DNA from: Deltaproteobacteria bacterium
GTDB lineage: Bacteria > Desulfobacterota > Desulfobulbia > Desulfobulbales > Desulfurivibrionaceae
NCBI GenBank assembly: GCA_021847425.1
Contig: JAJZRF010000002.1
Location: 1-64,000 of the forward strand
Length of the DNA: 64,000 nt
Direction of reading: 5' to 3'
The translations under genes and the position numbers were made by a program. This document shows positions 30,109-40,696 of the stretch, in pieces; position 1 is the first letter of the stretch, and the number at the start of each line of letters is the position of its first letter. Below the pieces are notes generated by a model, which had not been told where the DNA came from, made no database searches, and worked only from the letters and a program-made list of their open reading frames with translations.

Positions 30109-31224
30109 TCAGATGGCATAGGTGTCACCGGCAACGCCGGTGAGTTCGCCAAGATGGGTGGGCAGGACGATCAGGACGGTGGTGCCTTTGCCCAGCTCGC
30201 TGGTGACGGTGACGGTGCCCATGTGCTCGTTGATGATCTGTTTGACATAGGGCAACCCCAGGCCGGTGGTCCGCCGGTTGATGTGCAGATAGGGGTCGAA
30301 GATAACCTCGAGTATTTCCGCGGAGATCCCCGGGCCATCATCGGTGATTGTAACCTGGCAGCCGGCGGAGGTCCGTTCGGTTGCAATGATGATCCGGTTC
30401 TGCTTGGTGCAGGCATTCACCGCGTTCCGGAGCAGATGGGCAAGGGCGATCTTGATGAGCGAGCTGTTGCCATGGAAAAAAAGCGGGGCCTGACTGAGGG
30501 CGACCTGGAGATTGACCGCCTTGGCGCGGACCTCTTCCTGCAACGATTCCACAGCTTCCAGGACAATGGGGTTAAGGTCCAGCGGCGCGAAAATCTTTTT
30601 TGCCTCCGGCCGGACCGATTCGAATTTGCTCACCAGATTTTCAAGTTTGCGGGCCTGATCAAGGATATGGATCAGCTTTACCCGGCCCTCTTCTTCCGGC
30701 GGATAGGCGTTGAGGAGCCGGCGAACCATGCCGCCGATGATGGCGGCCGGGTTGCGCACTTCATGGGCGATGCGCAGGGCCATGCCAGCCCTGGTCCGCT
30801 CCGCGATGACCGCTTCGATGTCCTTGTTCAGGCGGAAAAGCTCCTGGCTGTTTTTTTCGATTTTTTCGCGGTCCCGGAGCATCCGTTCCATGATGGTTTC
30901 GATCCGGTTGAAAAAAAGGGTTACAGAGGCGATGACAATAAAGGCCATGCTGTTGATTGACCCGCTGTACGGGGCCACTATCCGCCAGAGGTCTTCCCTT
31001 CCGGAAAAGGTGAGAAGGTGTTTAAGGATGTGTCCACTGGAGCGCGACATGGCAAAGGCGAACAGCGCCCCGCAAAACCAGAGGAGAAAGATGGCCAGGG
31101 GGTTTTCCCGGTCGGTGCGGGCCAGGGCCAGGGCATGGTTGAGGCATAACCCTGAAAGAATGATGAGGGCGAAGGCCCCGCCGAAATCAAGGAGCCAGAT
31201 CGGCAGCATGGAGATGGTGATCAT
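30109..31224 (-). CDS. Membrane-bound sensor histidine kinase
   Basis: The N-terminus has three hydrophobic segments (about residues 5-30, 43-63 and 90-108) with short loops, then a coiled-coil linker, the HisKA His in ALRIAHEVRNPAAIIGG near residue 153, and HATPase motifs: N-box LLRNAVNACTKQN, G1 TDDGPGIS and G2 TGLGLPYVKQI. There is no periplasmic sensor domain of size, so the signal is likely membrane- or partner-derived. Its start overlaps the preceding membrane-protein gene as ATGA (31221-31224), which suggests that the pair forms one sensor. No cognate regulator is adjacent. Confidence 0.88.
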   Translation of the reverse strand: MITISMLPIWLLDFGGAFALIILSGLCLNHALALARTDRENPLAIFLLWFCGALFAFAMSRSSGHILKHLLTFSGREDLWRIVAPYSGSINSMAFIVIASVTLFFNRIETIMERMLRDREKIEKNSQELFRLNKDIEAVIAERTRAGMALRIAHEVRNPAAIIGGMVRRLLNAYPPEEEGRVKLIHILDQARKLENLVSKFESVRPEAKKIFAPLDLNPIVLEAVESLQEEVRAKAVNLQVALSQAPLFFHGNSSLIKIALAHLLRNAVNACTKQNRIIIATERTSAGCQVTITDDGPGISAEILEVIFDPYLHINRRTTGLGLPYVKQIINEHMGTVTVTSELGKGTTVLIVLPTHLGELTGVAGDTYAI

Positions 31225-31688
31225 GGGCGTCCCTGTCCAGGGGGAGATGGCCTGGATTGTTCCTCCCGGAGCAATTTAAGGCCCCGATAAAAAAGAAACA
31301 TGGCGGGCACGGCGAGGAGGTGATCCAGTTTCAGGATATAGTACAGACCCTCTTGCCAGCCATTCAGGCGGAGCAGGGGGATATCCGCGCCGGGCGGCAG
31401 GAACAGGGCGTCTTCGATCTCCAGATCGAGAAAATGTCCCACCATGGTGGCACCGCTCCAGAGCATGAGGAGCCAGGTCCCGGCGATGATGTATTGCCAT
31501 GCCTTAAGGGAAGCGAGACGGGTCTGGTGTGCTTTTACGGCAAAAAAGAAAAGCGAGACAATAAGGAAGAAGTGGGCGAGCTGATGGATGTACAACCCCG
31601 AATAGGCATGGGGCTGAAAGGCCAGAGCGTTATCCGGCAAAAGAGAGCCCGACAGCAGCAAAAAAACGGTGAAAAATAAGGTCGCCAA
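31221..31688 (-). CDS. Small membrane protein, partner of histidine kinase
   Basis: The 155-residue protein has a hydrophobic N-terminal segment ending ALAFQPHAYSG (possible signal peptide), then three further hydrophobic stretches: HFFLIVSLFFFAVKA, IIAGTWLLMLWSGA and a C-terminal DHLLAVPAMFLFYRGL. Several His residues (HQLAHF, HFLDLE, LDHLLA) are within or near membrane segments, which could bind haem or metal, but this is speculation. It overlaps the histidine kinase start by four bases. I do not recognise a family. Confidence 0.7.
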   Translation of the reverse strand: MATLFFTVFLLLSGSLLPDNALAFQPHAYSGLYIHQLAHFFLIVSLFFFAVKAHQTRLASLKAWQYIIAGTWLLMLWSGATMVGHFLDLEIEDALFLPPGADIPLLRLNGWQEGLYYILKLDHLLAVPAMFLFYRGLKLLREEQSRPSPPGQGRP

Positions 31689-31851
31689 AAAAGAACCTCG
31701 GATGGCTGGTTGTCTGGTGAAACCTCAGGCCAGAAGATTGGACATTATTATTGTCAAGATTAGCATATCATGTTGTGTGCTCTGGCTTGATATGAAAAAA
31801 ACGACTCGTGGAAAAAATATGTCAGGGGGGAAGTCCGCCACCGGGACAATA

Positions 31852-32685
31852 TCAGGCGCGGTCGTTCAATAAGTCCGGTTTTCTTGAAAGACCAAGCTCT
31901 TGGGAAACCTGGGTGGCAATCTCCTCTATGGATTTGCCCGCCGTGGAGACAATGGGAATCTTGTGATTGTGAAAGATGGTTTCGGCCGTCTGGATCTCCT
32001 CGCTGCAGGTGGAGCGTTTGGCATAATTGCTGTCCGCGTACCGTTTTTCCCGGACATTGTGGAGCACCTCAGGGGTGGTGGTCAGGCCGATGGCCCGCTT
32101 TATGTTCCTGATTATTTCTTCAGGCAGGGTGTATTTGCTGAGATACTCGGCGGTGAGGGGGAAATTTGCCGATTTCATTCCCATCTGCGTTGCCAGATAT
32201 ACACTGACCGGGGTCTTGCCGGAGCGGGAAACACCCAGCAGGATGACCTCGGCCTCGTCCAGTTCATGGGTGTTGACCCCGTCGTCATGTTCCAGGCAGT
32301 AGTGAATGGCCTCGACCCGCTTGGCCATGGTCAGGTTGTCGATATGCCGGGAAAAACCGGGAACGCCCAAGGCCTTTGCTTCAAGGCAGCCTTCCAGGCG
32401 CGTCATGAATATTTCAAAGGCGTCAAAAAGCTCGACCTCGGGGGCGTCGAAAACAGCGCGGATCTCCTTGGTCATGATGGTGCTGAAAATGAGGGGGCGG
32501 CGGCCGGATGATTTTTTCAGGATATAGTCCAGAATTTTTTTCGCTTCTTCCTTGTTAAGGACAAAGGGGAATTTTTCTTCGTGAAAATTGATTTCCGGAA
32601 ACTGGCAGATCAGGGCCTGGCCCAGGTTGGTCGCCAGGATTCCGGTGCTATCCGAGATATAATAGACGTCTTTCGATGACCACAT
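31852..32685 (-). CDS. ppsR: Pyruvate,phosphate/water dikinase regulatory kinase-phosphorylase (PSRP)
   Basis: The 277-residue protein is a DUF299/PSRP enzyme, which reversibly phosphorylates PPDK or PEP synthase using ADP and removes the phosphate with Pi. Motifs are YYISDSTGILATNLGQALI at the N-terminus, the P-loop LLGVSRSGKTPVSVYLA near residue 150, and MGMKSANFPL. It links PEP/pyruvate interconversion to energy state. It sits between the HD-GYP gene upstream and the kinase pair downstream, 45 bases after the HD-GYP stop; its target dikinase is outside the window. Confidence 0.95.
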   Translation of the reverse strand: MWSSKDVYYISDSTGILATNLGQALICQFPEINFHEEKFPFVLNKEEAKKILDYILKKSSGRRPLIFSTIMTKEIRAVFDAPEVELFDAFEIFMTRLEGCLEAKALGVPGFSRHIDNLTMAKRVEAIHYCLEHDDGVNTHELDEAEVILLGVSRSGKTPVSVYLATQMGMKSANFPLTAEYLSKYTLPEEIIRNIKRAIGLTTTPEVLHNVREKRYADSNYAKRSTCSEEIQTAETIFHNHKIPIVSTAGKSIEEIATQVSQELGLSRKPDLLNDRA

Positions 32686-32729
32686 GCTGCGTTGCTCCTT
32701 GTTGCCGGGGGGGAAGGGAAACGGTTGTC

Positions 32730-33689
32730 TCAGGCCGACCTTCCCCCTAAAAACAGGATGAACTCTTCAAACCGTTTTTGCTCGAAATGGCCGACCATCT
32801 CTTCCTTCATCAGGGTCAGGGCACTGATGGGGCGACGCGCCCCTCCGTAAGGGCGGTTGGTTGTCAGAGCGTCGTACACATCGGCAATGGTGGCAATTTT
32901 GGCATTGTCGGAAATCTGATCTTCCTTGAGTCCGTGGGGGTAGCCATTGCCGTTGATTTGTTCGTGGTGGTGCAGGATCACATCAAGGGTGGTTTCGGAG
33001 GTGTGCTTGGCCATGAGCCAGTGGCCTTGGCCCGGGTGTTTTTTGATGATTTCGAATTCCTCGAAGTCGAGTTTTCCCGGCTTGTTCAGGATGGTGTCCA
33101 GAATCTGGGTTTTTCCCACATCGTGCAGAATACAGCCCAGGGCAAAATCAAGGAGATCGGTGTCGTCGCCCTTGTGGATCATCAACCAGAGGCCCACGCC
33201 GAAAACCGCGACATTCACGCAGTGGGAAAAGGTGTAATAATCGTGCGAGCCCAAGCGAAGCAGGTGGCGGATGGATTGGGCGTCAGCCAGGGTAAGATCA
33301 ATGATGTTGCTGGTTATGGCTTTGGCGCGGGAGATGTTTCTGCCGCTCCGGGGGTCATCAAAAATATCCCGGATGATGTTTGTGGCGCAGGCATGCACAA
33401 TCGAGGATTTTTGCTCAAGGGGAACGGCTGAATTCCTGATAATGGAATCCAGGGATTGCTCCATGAAATTTTCAAATTTTTGGGCTGATTCCTGGGTGAT
33501 AAAGAGCGGCCCGTGGCTTTTCTGGGCGAGGATCTTCTTGATGTCGGCGATCTTGGTGTTGGCCGCGACCAGCAGCAGGGGTTTGTTGCTCTTGGCAGGT
33601 TTGGTGTAGATGTTGAAATCGATTGGCCGGTCTTCCGCAAGAAGATAATCGGTGACAATCCGGATAAATTTTTTGGGTTCGGAAAGCAT
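32730..33689 (-). CDS. HD-GYP domain protein, predicted c-di-GMP phosphodiesterase
   Basis: The N-terminal 130 residues (FNIYTKPAKSNKPLLLVAAN...) match the DUF3391-like or unassigned regions that often precede HD-GYP. The HD-GYP domain has ILHDVGKTQIL (HD), KHPGQGH, VILHHHEQINGNGYPHGL (the HHExxxGxGYP block) and IATIADVYDALTT. All metal and GYP residues are present, so hydrolysis of c-di-GMP is likely. The ATG at 33689 with AAGAG upstream is chosen; the open frame continues upstream to 33902 without recognisable sequence. It lies between FHA-cyclase and ppsR genes. Confidence 0.9.
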   Translation of the reverse strand: MLSEPKKFIRIVTDYLLAEDRPIDFNIYTKPAKSNKPLLLVAANTKIADIKKILAQKSHGPLFITQESAQKFENFMEQSLDSIIRNSAVPLEQKSSIVHACATNIIRDIFDDPRSGRNISRAKAITSNIIDLTLADAQSIRHLLRLGSHDYYTFSHCVNVAVFGVGLWLMIHKGDDTDLLDFALGCILHDVGKTQILDTILNKPGKLDFEEFEIIKKHPGQGHWLMAKHTSETTLDVILHHHEQINGNGYPHGLKEDQISDNAKIATIADVYDALTTNRPYGGARRPISALTLMKEEMVGHFEQKRFEEFILFLGGRSA

Positions 33690-33852
33690 GTTCTCTTCAG
33701 GTTCTCCAGGATTTTTACGGCACCGTAATGCTGGCGGAATTCCGCTCAGGCGGTGCGGCGCTATTGAGGATTTGCCCAACCTTTTTCGCCATTTCAGGGA
33801 CGATTTCAGGTCGTTTCCACGGCTTAGCGAGGGCCTGTAGCTGGCCGGTGTT

Positions 33853-34815
33853 CTATTCGAGATAGGCGGAAAGCTGGGAGAAGCTGCAGCCATAGGCATC
33901 AACCGCTTCCTGTTTTCCCTTCACCCGGAACGAATATTTCTTAAAAAAGGTCTCAGGCTCAAGGAGGTGCGCAACGGCGTCGCAGCCCATCACAAGATCC
34001 AGATCTTCCTGGGTGTTGGTCATATTTTCCAGACGAAACGCCACGTTGACCACGTCCCCGATCACGGTATAGTTCTGCCCATCCTGGGCAAGGTTTCCCA
34101 GCATGGCCTCGCCGGTATTGAGAGCCGCCCCGATCTGCAAAGGCCAGGGAAGATCCGGAACCTTCTTGCGGAGATTGAGGGTAAAGCTGTTGATGGCAAT
34201 GGCGGTTTTCAGGGCCTGGTGGATGTTGTCCCGGAGATTTGGCCCCGACCACAGGGCCATGACCGCGTCGCCGATGAATTTATCGACAATCCCCTCATGT
34301 TTGTGCACCAGCTTGCTCACTCCTCCGGTCCAATGCTGGAGAAGCTGGGAAACCCACTGGTCCCCCATGGTTTCCGACAGTCTGGTGAAATCGTGGATGT
34401 CGCAGATCAGGATGGTGATGATCTGTTTCTGGACAAAGGCTACGGTCATTTCATCGAGGTCCGGTCCGGTTGGTGGTGATGGCCGGGCTGGGGCCGTTTC
34501 TTGGTGGAACAGGAGGCGGGTGCTGCCGATGCCGATGCAGTCCCCGTTTTGCAGGGCAATGGGGGTATGGATTTTCCGGCCGTTGATAAAGGTGCCGTTG
34601 GAGCTTCCCAGGTCAATGAGATTGAAGCGGCCATTTTCCTCCCTTTGGATCATGGCGTGTTTCCGGGATACCCACGAGTAGGGCAGGGAGATATCGGTGT
34701 CTTTCACCCGGCCCATGGTATAGGTGGTGTTGCCGCTGAGCAGCCAGCGTTGGCCGTTGGCTTCCTGGGCATCAAGCAAGGTGAGGGTCGCCGGTGTTTC
34801 CGGTGGTGCGGTCAT
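33853..34815 (-). CDS. FHA domain - class III adenylate/guanylate cyclase
   Basis: An FHA domain (about residues 25-100; TMGRVKDTDISLPYSWVSRKH and DLGSSNGTFING) binds phosphothreonine peptides. A class III cyclase domain follows: metal-binding Asp residues in TILICDIHDFTRLSE and KFIGDAVMALW, and the transition-state Asn/Arg in GDVVNVAFRLE. It is soluble, with no membrane segment. The ATG at 34815 (320 residues) lies 19 bases after the selenoprotein stop; a TTG at 34881 would overlap that gene and is disfavoured. The cyclic nucleotide made and the kinase upstream are unknown. Confidence 0.9.
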   Translation of the reverse strand: MTAPPETPATLTLLDAQEANGQRWLLSGNTTYTMGRVKDTDISLPYSWVSRKHAMIQREENGRFNLIDLGSSNGTFINGRKIHTPIALQNGDCIGIGSTRLLFHQETAPARPSPPTGPDLDEMTVAFVQKQIITILICDIHDFTRLSETMGDQWVSQLLQHWTGGVSKLVHKHEGIVDKFIGDAVMALWSGPNLRDNIHQALKTAIAINSFTLNLRKKVPDLPWPLQIGAALNTGEAMLGNLAQDGQNYTVIGDVVNVAFRLENMTNTQEDLDLVMGCDAVAHLLEPETFFKKYSFRVKGKQEAVDAYGCSFSQLSAYLE

Positions 34816-34834
34816 GGTCGTCGGAGAGCCTTTT

Positions 34835-35059
34835 TTACCCGTGGCCCTGGATGAGGCTGATAATTTCTTCTGGCTCGGCAAAACGACCGGCTGCCTTTTT
34901 TGAAAAGATCAGACAGCCATCGGCTGTAATCTCGTAGATGCCGCCTGAGCCGGGAATAAGCTCAACCTCGGCGCCGAATTGTTTCTTCAGTTCGGCTTCC
35001 AGCCTGGAAGCCCGTGGCAGATAGTTTCATTGTGTGCAGTAGGTGATGCTGATTTTCAT
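34835..35059 (-). CDS. SelW-like (Rdx family) selenoprotein, UGA-encoded Sec11
   Basis: On the minus strand an ATG at 35059 opens MKISITYCTQ, then TGA at 35029-35027, then continues NYLPRASRLEAELKKQFG, VELIPGSGGIYEI and a TAA at 34837-34835. This is a full-length (74-residue) SelT/SelW/SelH-type thioredoxin-like protein in which the second Cys of the CxxC site is UGA, i.e. CTQU. Both halves match the family and are in one frame, which argues for selenocysteine rather than a stop. A perfect seven-base-pair hairpin with a GG-containing loop follows the UGA. A redox role is likely. Ordinary gene callers would split or skip it. Confidence 0.88.
34994..35012 (-). promoter_or_regulatory. Bacterial SECIS-like element
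   Basis: Read on the minus strand, GGCTTCC (35012-35006) pairs perfectly with GGAAGCC (35000-34994) around the loop AGGCT. The stem begins 14 bases and the loop 21 bases after the UGA, inside the 16-37 base UGA-to-loop range described for bacterial SECIS elements, and the loop has G at its second position as that consensus expects. Confidence 0.75.
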
Positions 35060-35372
35060 GGTGTGTTTCCGGGTGGTGGAAAATATTTTTTTTGTTGAAA
35101 TCGCAGGGAAGCGCAGACTTCGAAAAGCCGCGATTACAACAGTGGCCGTTTCGCCGCTCTAACTCCTTGATGTTAAGTCGCTGACCTGTGGCAATTACCC
35201 ATTTTTACGAGGCCGTTATTGTTACAGAGTTGGAAAGATTTGCGCAGTCCTTGGTTTCCTTATACCACAACAACAGCTGCGTATAACAGGATGGATTGTC
35301 CGATAAATTTGTAGCGATTGCAAGTGGAGAAATCGACAAGGGCGGGAAAATGATCACGCGGGGCAGCTCCCG
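35060..35372. other. Intergenic region upstream of the selenoprotein gene
   Basis: This 313-base stretch separates the flavoprotein stop (35373) from the selenoprotein start. It contains the second family A repeat (35094-35140) and otherwise no open frame with recognisable protein. The minus-strand promoter of the selenoprotein-cyclase unit should lie here, but no convincing -35/-10 pair stands out. Confidence 0.5.
35094..35140. repeat. Inverted repeat, family A copy 2
   Basis: GTTGAAATCGC (35094-35104) faces GCGATTACAAC (35130-35140), one mismatch in 11. The 25-base centre holds a small hairpin, GAAG-CGCAGA-CTTC. The arms match those at 925-955. Confidence 0.7.
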
Positions 35373-36629
35373 TCAACTGTGCCGGGGAGAAGGATGCGGC
35401 GATTGTGGGGTGGATTGCCTCAGCCATCTGAGAAGGCCTTGGGCGGCCCGGTATCCGGTGGTAAAGGCGCCCTGCAGCAGGTAGCCGCCGGTTGGCGCTT
35501 CCCAGTCCAGCATTTCCCCGGCCACGAAGACTCCCGGCAGTTGATGGAGCATGAGGTCCGCGTTCACCTCCGGGAAGGTAACGCCCCCGGCGGAGGAAAT
35601 TGCCTCGGCAAGCGGCCTGGTGTTGATGATGGGGACAGGCAGATTTTTGATCTTTCCGGCAAGCACTGCCGGATTTTTCAGCTCTTCCTGGCTACAGATT
35701 TCGCGGAGCAACGAATAGGCCGGCCCGGTGAGGTGTATGGCCTTGCGCAGGAAATTGACGAGACTCTCCTTGCCGCGTGGGTGTGCAAGCTTCTCTCGGA
35801 GAAGTTCCAGCGAAAGATCGCGTTTGAGGTCGAGAAATAGGGGAACAGGGGCGCCTTTTTCCAGCAGATCGCGGATGATACCGCTCAAGGCATAAACCGG
35901 GCCTCCTTCCAGGCCATGGTCGGTCACCATCACATCGCCGGTGGCCTGCCGGTCGCCGCAGCGGAGCAGAAGATTCTTGAGGGGTTTGCCGCTGAATTGG
36001 GCGCGAAAATGCTCGGACCACGCCACTTCAAGGCCGCAGTTTGCCGGGCGGAATGGCGCAAGGTGGACGCCTCTCGCGGCAAGGAACGAAGTCCAGCTTC
36101 CATCGGAGCCGGTTTGGGGCCAGCTTGCCCCGCCCAGGGCAAGAAGCACGGCCATGGCCGGGAATTCGAGGAGTGCGCCGTTTTCGGCAAGAAAGAGCGG
36201 CGCCCCTGTTTCGGCAAACCCCTGCCAGCGGTGGTGGTAGTGGAATACTACCCCGCGTCTGCCCAGGGTTTCAAGCCAGACTTTCAGAATATCGGGGGCC
36301 TTGGTGTCCTTGGGGAAGACCCGGCCGCTGGTGCCGACATAGGTTTCGACCCCGAGTCCGCGCAACCAGGCGCGCAGGTCGTCCGGTGAAAAAACGGCCA
36401 GGAGATTTTTGAAGATTTCGGCGTTATCGCCGTAGCGGGCGGCAAAATCTCCGGCTTTTTCCGAATGGGTGAGATTCAACCCGCTGCGACCGGCAACCAG
36501 AAATTTGCGCCCCGCCGAGCCCATTGCCTCGAAAATATGCACCGGCAGGCCTGCTTCGCTCAGGACCGTCGCCGCCATGAGCCCTGCCGGGCCACAGCCG
36601 GCAACCACCACCCTGGTCGCGTTTTTCAT
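35373..36629 (-). CDS. HI0933/BaiN-like NAD(P)/FAD-dependent oxidoreductase
   Basis: The N-terminal dinucleotide-binding motif is VVVAGCGPAGLMAATVLSEAG, followed by AGRKFLVAGRSGLNLTHSE, the G-R-K-F/G-G-R-C-N-type motif of the HI0933 family (here GRSGLNLT). The C-terminus has GGVTFPEVNADLM and VAGEMLDWEAPTGGYLLQGA, the second FAD-contact region. It most resembles the TIGR03862 subgroup of uncharacterised flavoproteins; the reaction is unknown. The ATG at 36629 starts the conserved sequence and overlaps the stop of the small Cys-rich gene as ATGA. Confidence 0.88.
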   Translation of the reverse strand: MKNATRVVVAGCGPAGLMAATVLSEAGLPVHIFEAMGSAGRKFLVAGRSGLNLTHSEKAGDFAARYGDNAEIFKNLLAVFSPDDLRAWLRGLGVETYVGTSGRVFPKDTKAPDILKVWLETLGRRGVVFHYHHRWQGFAETGAPLFLAENGALLEFPAMAVLLALGGASWPQTGSDGSWTSFLAARGVHLAPFRPANCGLEVAWSEHFRAQFSGKPLKNLLLRCGDRQATGDVMVTDHGLEGGPVYALSGIIRDLLEKGAPVPLFLDLKRDLSLELLREKLAHPRGKESLVNFLRKAIHLTGPAYSLLREICSQEELKNPAVLAGKIKNLPVPIINTRPLAEAISSAGGVTFPEVNADLMLHQLPGVFVAGEMLDWEAPTGGYLLQGAFTTGYRAAQGLLRWLRQSTPQSPHPSPRHS

Positions 36630-36820
36630 GGGGGAGATTGTTTTTTCCCTGTCTTGCCGGAGCTCTTTTTGTGCTCCAGCTCCTTGATCCGCTCGGTAAG
36701 CGCTTCGCTCAAGGTTACCCTCCCCTCGAGCACGCATCCCGGTCGGCCTGGAATACAGTCCTCTTTGAGCATCAGGCATTTGTCGTCATTGTAGTCGTAG
36801 TTTTTGCAGGAAAAGCTCAT
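36626..36820 (-). CDS. Small Cys-containing protein coupled to flavoprotein gene
   Basis: This 64-residue protein has four Cys in its first half (CKNYDYNDDKC, then EDC and PGC), followed by a helix and a Lys-rich tail. The Cys spacing (9, 6 and 6-7) could bind a metal or cluster. The ATG at 36820 is preferred over a TTG two codons earlier. Four-base overlap with the flavoprotein start indicates co-translation. Family not recognised. Confidence 0.6.
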   Translation of the reverse strand: MSFSCKNYDYNDDKCLMLKEDCIPGRPGCVLEGRVTLSEALTERIKELEHKKSSGKTGKKQSPP

Positions 36821-36867
36821 CGCCAAAGAACCCCTGGTGTAGGGTGAAATTTTGTAAGTACTCAGGT

Positions 36868-36925
36868 GGATAGGCCGAAGGCTGAAGGTTCTTTTGGTAT
36901 ACTTCAGTCTTCAGCCGTCAGCCTC
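36868..36925. repeat. GGCTGAAG-type inverted repeat
   Basis: GGCCGAAGGCTGAAG at 36873-36887 faces CTTCAGTCTTCAGCC starting near 36902. It fills the spacer between the small Cys-rich gene and the NtrC-type regulator and has the appearance of a common extragenic repeat. Confidence 0.5.
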
Positions 36926-36943
36926 AATTCCCAAACAGCTACG

Positions 36944-38329
36944 TCAGCGTTTCAGGATGCCGTGTTTTTTCATTTTATACTGGAGCAGGCTCTTGGTGAT
37001 GCCCAGGGCATCGGCCGCTTTTGTCTGGACATAGTCGGATTTGCTCAAGGCGGAGAGGACCATTTTCTTTTCAATGCCGTCAAGCACATCGGGCAGCGGG
37101 GTGTTGACCGGGATCGCCTGCTCCATGTCAAACCCATTCAGCCACTGCATGGGTTTTTTCCCGGGCATGGTTTCGGGCTGCACATCTTCCGGGCGGATCA
37201 AGTTTCTGCTGCAGAGAATGGCTGCCCGTTCGATGGTGTTTTCCAACTCGCGGATGTTGCCTTCCCAGGGCAGGGTCGTGAGAAACCGCACGGTTTCCGT
37301 GGTAATCTCCAGCTTGGGCTTGTCGAGCTGCTTGGCGTATTTGTTGACAAAATGGGCGACCAGCAAGGGGATATCATCGGTGCGCTCTCTGAGGGGGGGG
37401 AGGTGGATGTGGAGCACATTGAGCCGGTAATAGAGATCTTCCCGGAAATGACCCTTGTCCACCTCATCCTTGAGATCCCTGTTGGTCGCGGCGATGATCC
37501 GGACATCAACCCGCAGGGTCTGGCTGCCCCCGACCCGCTCGAAGTTGCGTTCCTGGAGAACGCGCAGCAGTTTGGCCTGGAGCGGCATGGCCATCTCGCC
37601 GACCTCGTCGAGAAACAGGCTGCCGGTGTCGGCCAGTTCGAACCTTCCCTTGCGCAGGGCGATGGCCCCGGTGAAGGCGCCTTTTTCATGGCCGAAGAGT
37701 TCGCTTTCCAGGAGATTTTCCGGCAGGCCCGCGCAGTTGAGGGAAATGAACGGCGCCTTTTCGCGCGGGCTGTTGCAGTGGATGGCCCTGGCCACCAGCT
37801 CCTTGCCGGTGCCGGATTCGCCGGTGATCAGGACCGAAGTCGAGGTCGGAGCCACCTTTTCGATAAGGTTGAAGATGGCCTGCATTTTCTGGTTCTTGCC
37901 GACCATGCTGGAATAAGAGGTGCGGGAGCGCATTTCCTCCCGGAGCCGGATGTTTTCGCGGAGCAAGGCGTAATGCTCCAGAGCCTTGTTGGCGTTCAGC
38001 ACCAGTTCGTCGTTGTTGAAGGGCTTGGTGAGATAGTTGAATGCCCCGGCTTTCATGGCGGCCACGGCCATTTCCACCTCTCCGAAGGCCGTGACCATAA
38101 TGACGGGCAGGTCCGGGTTGAGGGCTTTGGCCGCATTGAGCAGTCCCAGGCCGTCGAGCCCAGGCATGCGCATATCGGTAATCACCAGGTCAATGTCGGT
38201 CTCGCCCAGGATTTTGAGGGCCTCTTCCCCATTCCCGGCGGTAAAGACGCCGAACCCTTCCTCCCCGAGCAGCTCGGAGAGGACTACCAGGTAGTTTGGC
38301 TCATCGTCAACAATCAGTACGGTCTTCAT
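36944..38329 (-). CDS. Sigma-54-dependent response regulator (NtrC family)
   Basis: The receiver domain (residues 1-120) has the phosphoacceptor Asp in LVITDMRMPGLDG and Lys in YLTKPFNN. The AAA+ domain has Walker A ITGESGTGKELVARA, the sigma-54 contact loop GAFTGA, Walker B GSLFLDEVGEM, and an arginine-containing second half. The Fis-type helix-turn-helix at the C-terminus reads AADALGITKSLLQYKMKKHG. Full length at 461 residues. It ends the minus-strand unit receiver-CheA-NtrC, so it may be phosphorylated by the CheA-like kinase; promoters it controls are not known. Confidence 0.96.
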   Translation of the reverse strand: MKTVLIVDDEPNYLVVLSELLGEEGFGVFTAGNGEEALKILGETDIDLVITDMRMPGLDGLGLLNAAKALNPDLPVIMVTAFGEVEMAVAAMKAGAFNYLTKPFNNDELVLNANKALEHYALLRENIRLREEMRSRTSYSSMVGKNQKMQAIFNLIEKVAPTSTSVLITGESGTGKELVARAIHCNSPREKAPFISLNCAGLPENLLESELFGHEKGAFTGAIALRKGRFELADTGSLFLDEVGEMAMPLQAKLLRVLQERNFERVGGSQTLRVDVRIIAATNRDLKDEVDKGHFREDLYYRLNVLHIHLPPLRERTDDIPLLVAHFVNKYAKQLDKPKLEITTETVRFLTTLPWEGNIRELENTIERAAILCSRNLIRPEDVQPETMPGKKPMQWLNGFDMEQAIPVNTPLPDVLDGIEKKMVLSALSKSDYVQTKAADALGITKSLLQYKMKKHGILKR

Positions 38330-38404
38330 TATGAAAGCAGCCTTGCAGCAGTAGAATTTTTCGGGAAAACGTCTTGTGAGCGCCTTGGGGTGAAGGCATG
38401 CCTG

Positions 38405-40696
38405 CTATGCGGCATGCTCGGCGATTTCCTTGATATCGGCAATCAGGACAATATCGTCGTTGCCCATGATGGTGTATCCGCAGACCCCATTGATTTTTTG
38501 GAGTTTTTTGTAGCCATCGCCAAACTCCTTGGCCACGATTTTCTGGTAGGAAAGGATGCGGTCAACGAGCAGGCCGATCCCATGGGGCTTGCAGACCACA
38601 ACAACTTTATTGCTCTTGCCGGCCAGGGTCGAGGAGGCTTCCGGGTAAAAGAAGGTGTTGAGCTCAACAAGCCTAAGGATTCCGCCATCATATGCGATAC
38701 AGTTGTTTTCCGCAAGGAGAGGGATGATGTTTTCTGTTTCGATGATCGTGGTGATCTCATCGGAGGGAATGGCATAGGTCTCGTTGCCTGATTCAGCGAG
38801 CATGGCATCCTTGGTGACCAGGGTTTTGGTGAGCGGCACGGTGAGGGAAACCCTGGTGCCTTTGCCCACGGTGGAATCGAGCTGGATGCTGCCGTTGCAA
38901 TCCTTGAGGCCGGACATGACCACGTCCATGCCCACCCCGCGGCCCGAGACCTCGCTGACCTTTTCCGCCGAGCTGAACCCAGGCCTGAAAATAAGGTTGA
39001 TCAGCTCCCGGTCGCTCAATCGCTCCAACTCTTCAACTCCCATGAACCCCTTGTTTCTGGCGATTTCCTTCATTTTTAGCGGATCGATGCCCAGGCCGTC
39101 GTCTTCGATGATGATATGGACATTGTTCTCGTCCGTCCGCGCATGCAGGGTGAGGCTGCCCTGTTGCGGCTTGCCGGTTTTCTTTCTTGCCTCCGGCGTT
39201 TCGAGGCCGTGATCCAAGGAATTGCGCAGGATGTGGACCAGTGGGTTTTCGATTTTTTCCAGCAGGTCTTTGTCGATGACGGTTTCTTCGCCGGTGATGG
39301 TGAACTGAACATCCTTGCGGAGCGAAGTGGAAAGCTGGCGGACCACCTTGGGGAATCGCTGGAACAGTGATTTGACCGGCACCCGGCGGATGCTCATGAC
39401 ATTGGCGTGCAATTTTTCAAGCTGTTCGTCAAGCGCATGCACAATGCCGTCAAATCTGGAGATGAGCCCAAAATTCGCCAGATTGGCTTCCATCTGTTTT
39501 TTGAGAAAATTGAGGGAATCGAGGCTGATGTAAAGCCCGCCCACGGAATTGGCGAAGTTGTCGAGCCGCGCCTGATCAATGCGGATGGTTTTTGTCTGCT
39601 CGCCGCTTTTGCTTTCCCTGAGGTGGGCGTCGAGGGACCGTTTATCCTGGATTTCCAGGGCTTTTTTCAGGTCATTTTCCTGGATAGCCCCCTGTTCGAG
39701 GAGCAGTTCCCCGATCTTTTTCTGCTGGCCCAAGGCTGCGGAGATCTGCGCTTCGCTGACAAGCTGCTGCTCCACCAGAATTTCACCCAGCCGGGTGCTG
39801 CCAACCTTTGCCCTGGCCTCAAAACAGCCGATCACCGAGTTGAGGAGGTTTCGGCAGAGGGTGTTGTATTCATCGCTGGCCACCATCAGGGGGTCATCAA
39901 GGAAGTTTCGCATGGCAAGGAGTTCGTCAAGCACTCCGGCGATGGCGCTGTTGCCTTGCAGGGCTTCGCTTATCTGGGCAAGGGCCTGGGCAAAGGCGAG
40001 CAGGAGATCCTTGCCCGCGGCCTTTTTGCCTTCAAGAAGCCCGAGGATCAAACCGAACTGGGCCAGCTGGCTGCTGAACTCCCTGTCGCCCAGAAAGTAT
40101 TGGCTGTCTGGGGAGTAGGCGCTGCTCGGCCCTGTGTGTTTTTTGGCGGCGATAATTGTCTGGAGATCGATATTGGCTTTTTCAATTTGATCCAGCAACC
40201 CCGGGATTGTGGGGTGGGCGTAAATATTCTGGCCAAGATCCAGGAATTCATGGAGAAGATTTTCCAGGGTGATGACACTTTGGATGGAACCGGTTGCACT
40301 AATGGGCTGGACCGCCTCAATCTGGATGAGGAACTCTTTTTCTTCCGGGAGAAAAGCCACTGCGGCAGGGTTTTTTTGAGCCCGGTCGAGCATGGCCTGC
40401 AGGTATTCCACCCCCTTGAGCAGAAGGTCGATGATTTTTTTGTTGATGATGATTTCGCCTTTGCGGCAGGCGGCAAGGAGATTTTCCAGGCGGTGGGAGA
40501 ACTTGTTGATGTTGGTGAGGCCGAAGAAGCCGGAATTCCCCTTGAGGCTGTGAACCGGGCGAAAGATCCTGTTGATGATCTCACCGTTTCCGGGATCATC
40601 TTCCAGAGCGATGAAGTCCGCTTCGATTCCCTGGAGGGAATCGAAGGATTCATCGATAAAGCCTTGGAGTGCGTCAAGATCAACGTCATACTGCAT
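38405..40696 (-). CDS. CheA-like hybrid-architecture histidine kinase
   Basis: An HPt domain at the N-terminus carries the phospho-His in RPVHSLKGNSGFFG (His49). A helical middle region follows, then a repeated segment near residues 298-350, LGEILVEQQLVSEAQISAAL and IGELLLEQGAIQENDLKKAL, which resembles the MshEN/GspE N-terminal domain. The dimerisation region, HATPase (RNSLDHGLETP, EDDGLGIDP, GRGVGMDVV) and a C-terminal CheW domain complete it. No methyl-accepting receptor or CheR/CheB is nearby. One base separates it from the receiver gene at 40698. Confidence 0.92.
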   Translation of the reverse strand: MQYDVDLDALQGFIDESFDSLQGIEADFIALEDDPGNGEIINRIFRPVHSLKGNSGFFGLTNINKFSHRLENLLAACRKGEIIINKKIIDLLLKGVEYLQAMLDRAQKNPAAVAFLPEEKEFLIQIEAVQPISATGSIQSVITLENLLHEFLDLGQNIYAHPTIPGLLDQIEKANIDLQTIIAAKKHTGPSSAYSPDSQYFLGDREFSSQLAQFGLILGLLEGKKAAGKDLLLAFAQALAQISEALQGNSAIAGVLDELLAMRNFLDDPLMVASDEYNTLCRNLLNSVIGCFEARAKVGSTRLGEILVEQQLVSEAQISAALGQQKKIGELLLEQGAIQENDLKKALEIQDKRSLDAHLRESKSGEQTKTIRIDQARLDNFANSVGGLYISLDSLNFLKKQMEANLANFGLISRFDGIVHALDEQLEKLHANVMSIRRVPVKSLFQRFPKVVRQLSTSLRKDVQFTITGEETVIDKDLLEKIENPLVHILRNSLDHGLETPEARKKTGKPQQGSLTLHARTDENNVHIIIEDDGLGIDPLKMKEIARNKGFMGVEELERLSDRELINLIFRPGFSSAEKVSEVSGRGVGMDVVMSGLKDCNGSIQLDSTVGKGTRVSLTVPLTKTLVTKDAMLAESGNETYAIPSDEITTIIETENIIPLLAENNCIAYDGGILRLVELNTFFYPEASSTLAGKSNKVVVVCKPHGIGLLVDRILSYQKIVAKEFGDGYKKLQKINGVCGYTIMGNDDIVLIADIKEIAEHAA

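Follow-up and report, generated by a model that had tools for sequence, protein, structure and literature searches.

The locus at 34835 to 35059 is best read, with a probability of about 97%, as the gene for a short SelW-like (Rdx) selenoprotein of a Desulfobulbales-type bacterium, in which a UGA is decoded as selenocysteine (Sec) by way of a downstream hairpin. Here, "the window" is the whole 64,000-nucleotide stretch that was analysed; its source genome is fragmented (121 contigs, 81% complete). The initial annotation had described a frame from ATG to TAA with a single TGA, which stands, and had named no strand; the gene is encoded on the minus strand. The features discussed below are as follows.

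34835..35059, minus strand: selW-like selenoprotein gene, 74 residues, ATG to TAA, one in-frame UGA.
35027..35029, minus strand: UGA codon 11, the U of C-T-Q-U; TGA in all Sec-clade homologues covering the site.
34994..35012, minus strand: SECIS-type hairpin GGCUUCCA-GGC-UGGAAGCC, with the stem from 14 nt and the loop 22 nt after the UGA.
33853..34815, minus strand: FHA + adenylate/guanylate cyclase gene, downstream of selW (FHA E=6.8e-21, Guanylate_cyc E=5.5e-11).
35373..36779, minus strand: HI0933-like / TIGR03862 flavoprotein gene, upstream of selW (TIGR03862 E=3e-135).

Reading along the minus strand, selW starts at an ATG at 35059 and ends at a TAA at 34837-34835, and the TGA at codon 11 is the only internal stop in the frame. 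The Cys of the C-T-Q-U motif is codon 8 (35036-35038). With TGA translated as U, the product is MKISITYCTQUNYLPRASRLEAELKKQFGAEVELIPGSGGIYEITADGCLIFSKKAAGRFAEPEEIISLIQGHG. No strong Shine-Dalgarno sequence is visible ahead of the ATG. The plus strand between 34835 and 35059 holds no gene, with two TGAs and nothing family-like in its translation. The window was also scanned by eye for further UGA-interrupted genes, and no second convincing candidate was seen.

The 74-residue translation was searched against Rdx-family profiles and exceeded the curated cut-offs for Pfam Rdx PF10262 (E=1.7e-22, 79.8 bits, cut-off 22.6), NCBIfam NF041051 SelTWH_Campy, 'SelT/SelW/SelH family (seleno)protein' (E=3.2e-29, 101 bits, equivalog cut-off 88), and TIGR02174 (E=2.8e-17, 62.8 bits, cut-off 34.2). 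The PF10262 alignment is full-length, placing residues 2-71 on profile positions 1-73/74. The C8-T-Q-U11 motif comes after strand 2-8, and both motif columns are invariant in the alignment, where U was entered as C. An AlphaFold model (pLDDT 94.1) has the thioredoxin-like beta-alpha-beta-beta-beta-alpha fold; its top Foldseek matches are SelW-related structures with a TM of about 0.9 and an rmsd of about 1 A, the best in the PDB being 2fa8, 'Selenoprotein W-related' (TM 0.92). By sequence, the PDB entries nearest to the translation either bear the name SelW-related or are hypothetical members of the family. The product of 34835..35059 is a genuine member of the Rdx/SelW family of small redox proteins.

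Homologues were sought in 116 genomes drawn from the genus, the family, and the order, and selW was present in 96 of them. In these 96 genomes, TGA was found in all matches spanning codon 11, the two stop-free matches being ones in which codon 11 lies outside the matched span; in the extracted homologue sequences, the TGA likewise falls at codon 11. Cys, encoded by TGC or TGT, occupies this column in alphaproteobacterial and Gordonia homologues, so the Cys anticipated at position 11 occurs in relatives from other phyla, while the order-level homologues covering the codon carry UGA. Compared with 16 orthologues from the genus and family, substitutions 3' of the UGA are mostly at third codon positions, which shows that the downstream part is translated; this part, initially claimed to fit the family, is conserved as protein. 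Codon 11 is very probably read as selenocysteine by the bacterium.

Three observations on gene content and variants were made along the way. The other 20 genomes gave no selW match, and a single genus (g16 of family f11) accounts for eight of these; all eight are >=96% complete, which suggests that selW was lost throughout the lineage. One genome (G004) has two selW genes, both with UGA (L021 and G004:C5:1857-2075); these may reflect a duplication or a strain mixture in the assembly. In another (G082), the SelW homologue (L131 / L163, minus strand, L163 about 1500-1719) has TGA at codons 8 and 11, so that U-x-x-U replaces C-x-x-U, with the downstream hairpin intact; found in this single genome, the change may be either a true variant with two Sec residues or an error of sequencing. 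When 395 genomes of the phylum were searched for more UxxU genes of the SelW type, two pattern matches came up, which were rejected as un-SelW-like by the matched letters only.

Bacterial SECIS elements sit within the coding sequence, immediately 3' of the UGA, whereas those of eukaryotes are found in the 3' UTR. The perfect 7-bp stem with loop AGGCT reported 14 bases past the UGA is present, and it can be read as GGCTTCC-AGGCT-GGAAGCC or, if an A-U pair closes, as an 8-bp stem with loop GGC. The minimum free energy is -14.3 kcal/mol, with a shuffle z of -2.05. A stem of >=5 pairs occupies the fixed position in 67 of 71 distinct Sec genes, compared with 3.0% of synonymous shuffles in which codons were drawn by the genes' own usage. 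Codon 18 is TCC (Ser) in 70 of the 71, while TCA and AGC are common at other Ser positions of these genes. The third bases of codons 17 and 21 (18 and 30 after the UGA) pair and covary, with 24 T-A, 11 C-G, 3 C-A, and 2 T-G combinations; the Fisher p of 1e-5 is indicative, since the 40 representatives counted (<85% identity) are still related. At the next stem position, T-A is replaced by G-C in one genome (L058). The stem was found at the same place in 0 of 63 Cys genes, which are an unclean hairpin control because their residues differ there. Measured against synonymous shuffles, the folding energy of the Sec genes is modest and no stronger than that of the Cys genes (mean z of -0.60 and -0.93, respectively); it does not tell the two sets apart, whereas the fixed-position test does. 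Rfam SECIS_1 (RF00031) gave no match in the genome, a result that is uninformative because 14 control genomes also gave none. From the Sec-gene alignment, the hairpin is conserved beyond codon constraint.

The genome was then checked for selA, selB, selC, and selD, and all four are present, each over its cut-off. Profile searches placed SelA (610.8 bits), SelB (362.6 bits), and SelD (378 bits) above curated cut-offs, and the Rfam model for tRNA-Sec scored 60.7 bits (cut-off 47), with an anticodon loop of CUUCAAA giving the anticodon UCA. ARAGORN did not report this tRNA in the genome; the Rfam model recovered it. The selD gene is itself a selenoprotein gene (L006 1477-2580, contig C81), with an in-frame UGA near the N-terminus (TSTVKAAGUAAK) at a position that we equate with the known catalytic Cys/Sec site; UGA is thus recoded in this genome outside selW too. 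When read through, the selD frame passes a second TGA near the C-terminus (EIVUSAG); translation of selD probably ends at this TGA.

The pieces fit a simple scheme. A ribosome starting at the ATG at 35059 would reach the UGA at codon 11, where the hairpin inside the coding sequence, just 3' of the UGA, would recruit SelB and Sec-tRNA (anticodon UCA); selenocysteine would be inserted, and translation would run on to the TAA. The predicted product is a single thioredoxin-like domain with C-x-x-U in the loop ahead of the first helix, where the motif could form a reversible Cys-Sec bond. Given this placement, SelW is most likely a small thiol/selenol oxidoreductase.

Could the TGA instead mark a Cys-type Rdx gene that was broken by mutation of TGC or TGT? 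Cys homologues exist, and a single base change yields TGA. A pseudogene is refuted by the conservation of the UGA at the same codon in all order-level homologues covering it, and it also sits badly with the protein conservation on both sides of the UGA, the mostly third-position changes downstream, and the full Sec machinery in the genome; we regard it as extremely improbable. That codon 11 was misread in sequencing or assembly, for which the fragmented state of the genome might speak, is less credible still, because independent assemblies from dozens of species have the identical TGA, among them the complete genome of Desulfosediminicola flagellatus (L057). Decoding of the UGA as Sec in an intact SelW-like gene is preferred over both. 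The initial proposal of a SelW-like selenoprotein, with Sec as the second residue of CxxU and a SECIS hairpin, held up against both of the refuting conditions that came with it: the genome has the Sec machinery, and homologues conserve the region downstream of the UGA as protein.

The initial annotation also placed selW in a redox-linked signalling unit with the FHA-cyclase. The likely cyclase start (ATG 34815) lies on the same strand, 19 nt past the selW stop, and a shared transcript is plausible. The flavoprotein gene, about 300 nt before selW, is syntenic in the genus, and the order flavoprotein, selW, FHA-cyclase, HD-domain protein, and kinase/pyrophosphorylase recurs in most of its members. 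Outside the genus, the FHA-cyclase adjoins selW in two genomes of the same family (G018 and G020). A dedicated unit, in which SelW would sense the redox state and control the downstream FHA-cyclase, draws on this spacing and adjacency. Against it, the loci fetched from other families of the order showed no FHA-cyclase next to selW, the genus includes at least two members (L027 and L052) that keep selW without the FHA-cyclase, and selW is much more widespread than the pairing. The proximity claimed for the two genes stands in most of the genus and in the two family genomes, and the functional unit is very unlikely. A narrower version, with SelW as the redox-sensing partner of the adjoining cyclase in a selenium-dependent second-messenger switch specific to the genus or family, is slightly more doubtful again, and any link between SelW and signalling by the cyclase is speculative. 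Around selW, the minus strand carries a dense run of signalling genes (30109-40696 of the window), comprising a CheA-like kinase, an NtrC-type regulator, the FHA-cyclase, an HD-domain protein, a kinase/pyrophosphorylase regulator, and a histidine kinase.

The closest named relatives are Desulfobulbaceae MAGs, a MAG labelled Desulfurivibrio, and Desulfosediminicola, which suggest the order Desulfobulbales. The 2006 survey of Zhang et al. lists SelW-like selenoproteins in Desulfotalea psychrophila, Geobacter sulfurreducens, and other organisms, and found very few Cys homologues of this family in Sec-using organisms (PMC1794560). Desulfotalea belongs to Desulfobulbales as well. The window protein is of the same family as those in the survey, with Sec in CxxU and the same scarcity of the Cys form, and differs in organism and sequence only. 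A 2026 review gives SelW-like proteins as CxxU only, under PF10262, and as 'predicted with high confidence' (PMC13188914). For Campylobacter jejuni SelW (CJnc60), full-length translation past the UGA was confirmed by Ribo-seq and proteomics (PMC11955535); the window protein scores above the equivalog cut-off of the corresponding NF041051 model. C. jejuni is from a different phylum. Among Cys-type alphaproteobacterial Rdx proteins, Agrobacterium Atu0228 (the 2fa8 structure) has the same fold, 43% identity, and a shared motif position. The aligned proteins of this type have Cys for Sec, lack the SECIS-type stem at that place, and carry NWLLRAxWM in helix 1 where the window SelW has NYLPRASRLE. 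Mouse SELENOW (PDB 2npb) belongs to the same family, with an E of 0.0035 by sequence and a TM of 0.67 by fold.

The selW gene of the window is ordinary and well precedented; genes of its kind were already described from related sulfur bacteria in 2006. Genes of the SelW type are easily lost in annotation because the UGA is taken as a stop, and in Epsilonproteobacteria, they were entirely overlooked (PMC4607533). The gene adds one SelW-type selenoprotein to a lineage already known as selenoprotein-rich, and, by comparison across the 71 distinct genes aligned, the case for a SECIS element in the SelW family is clear.
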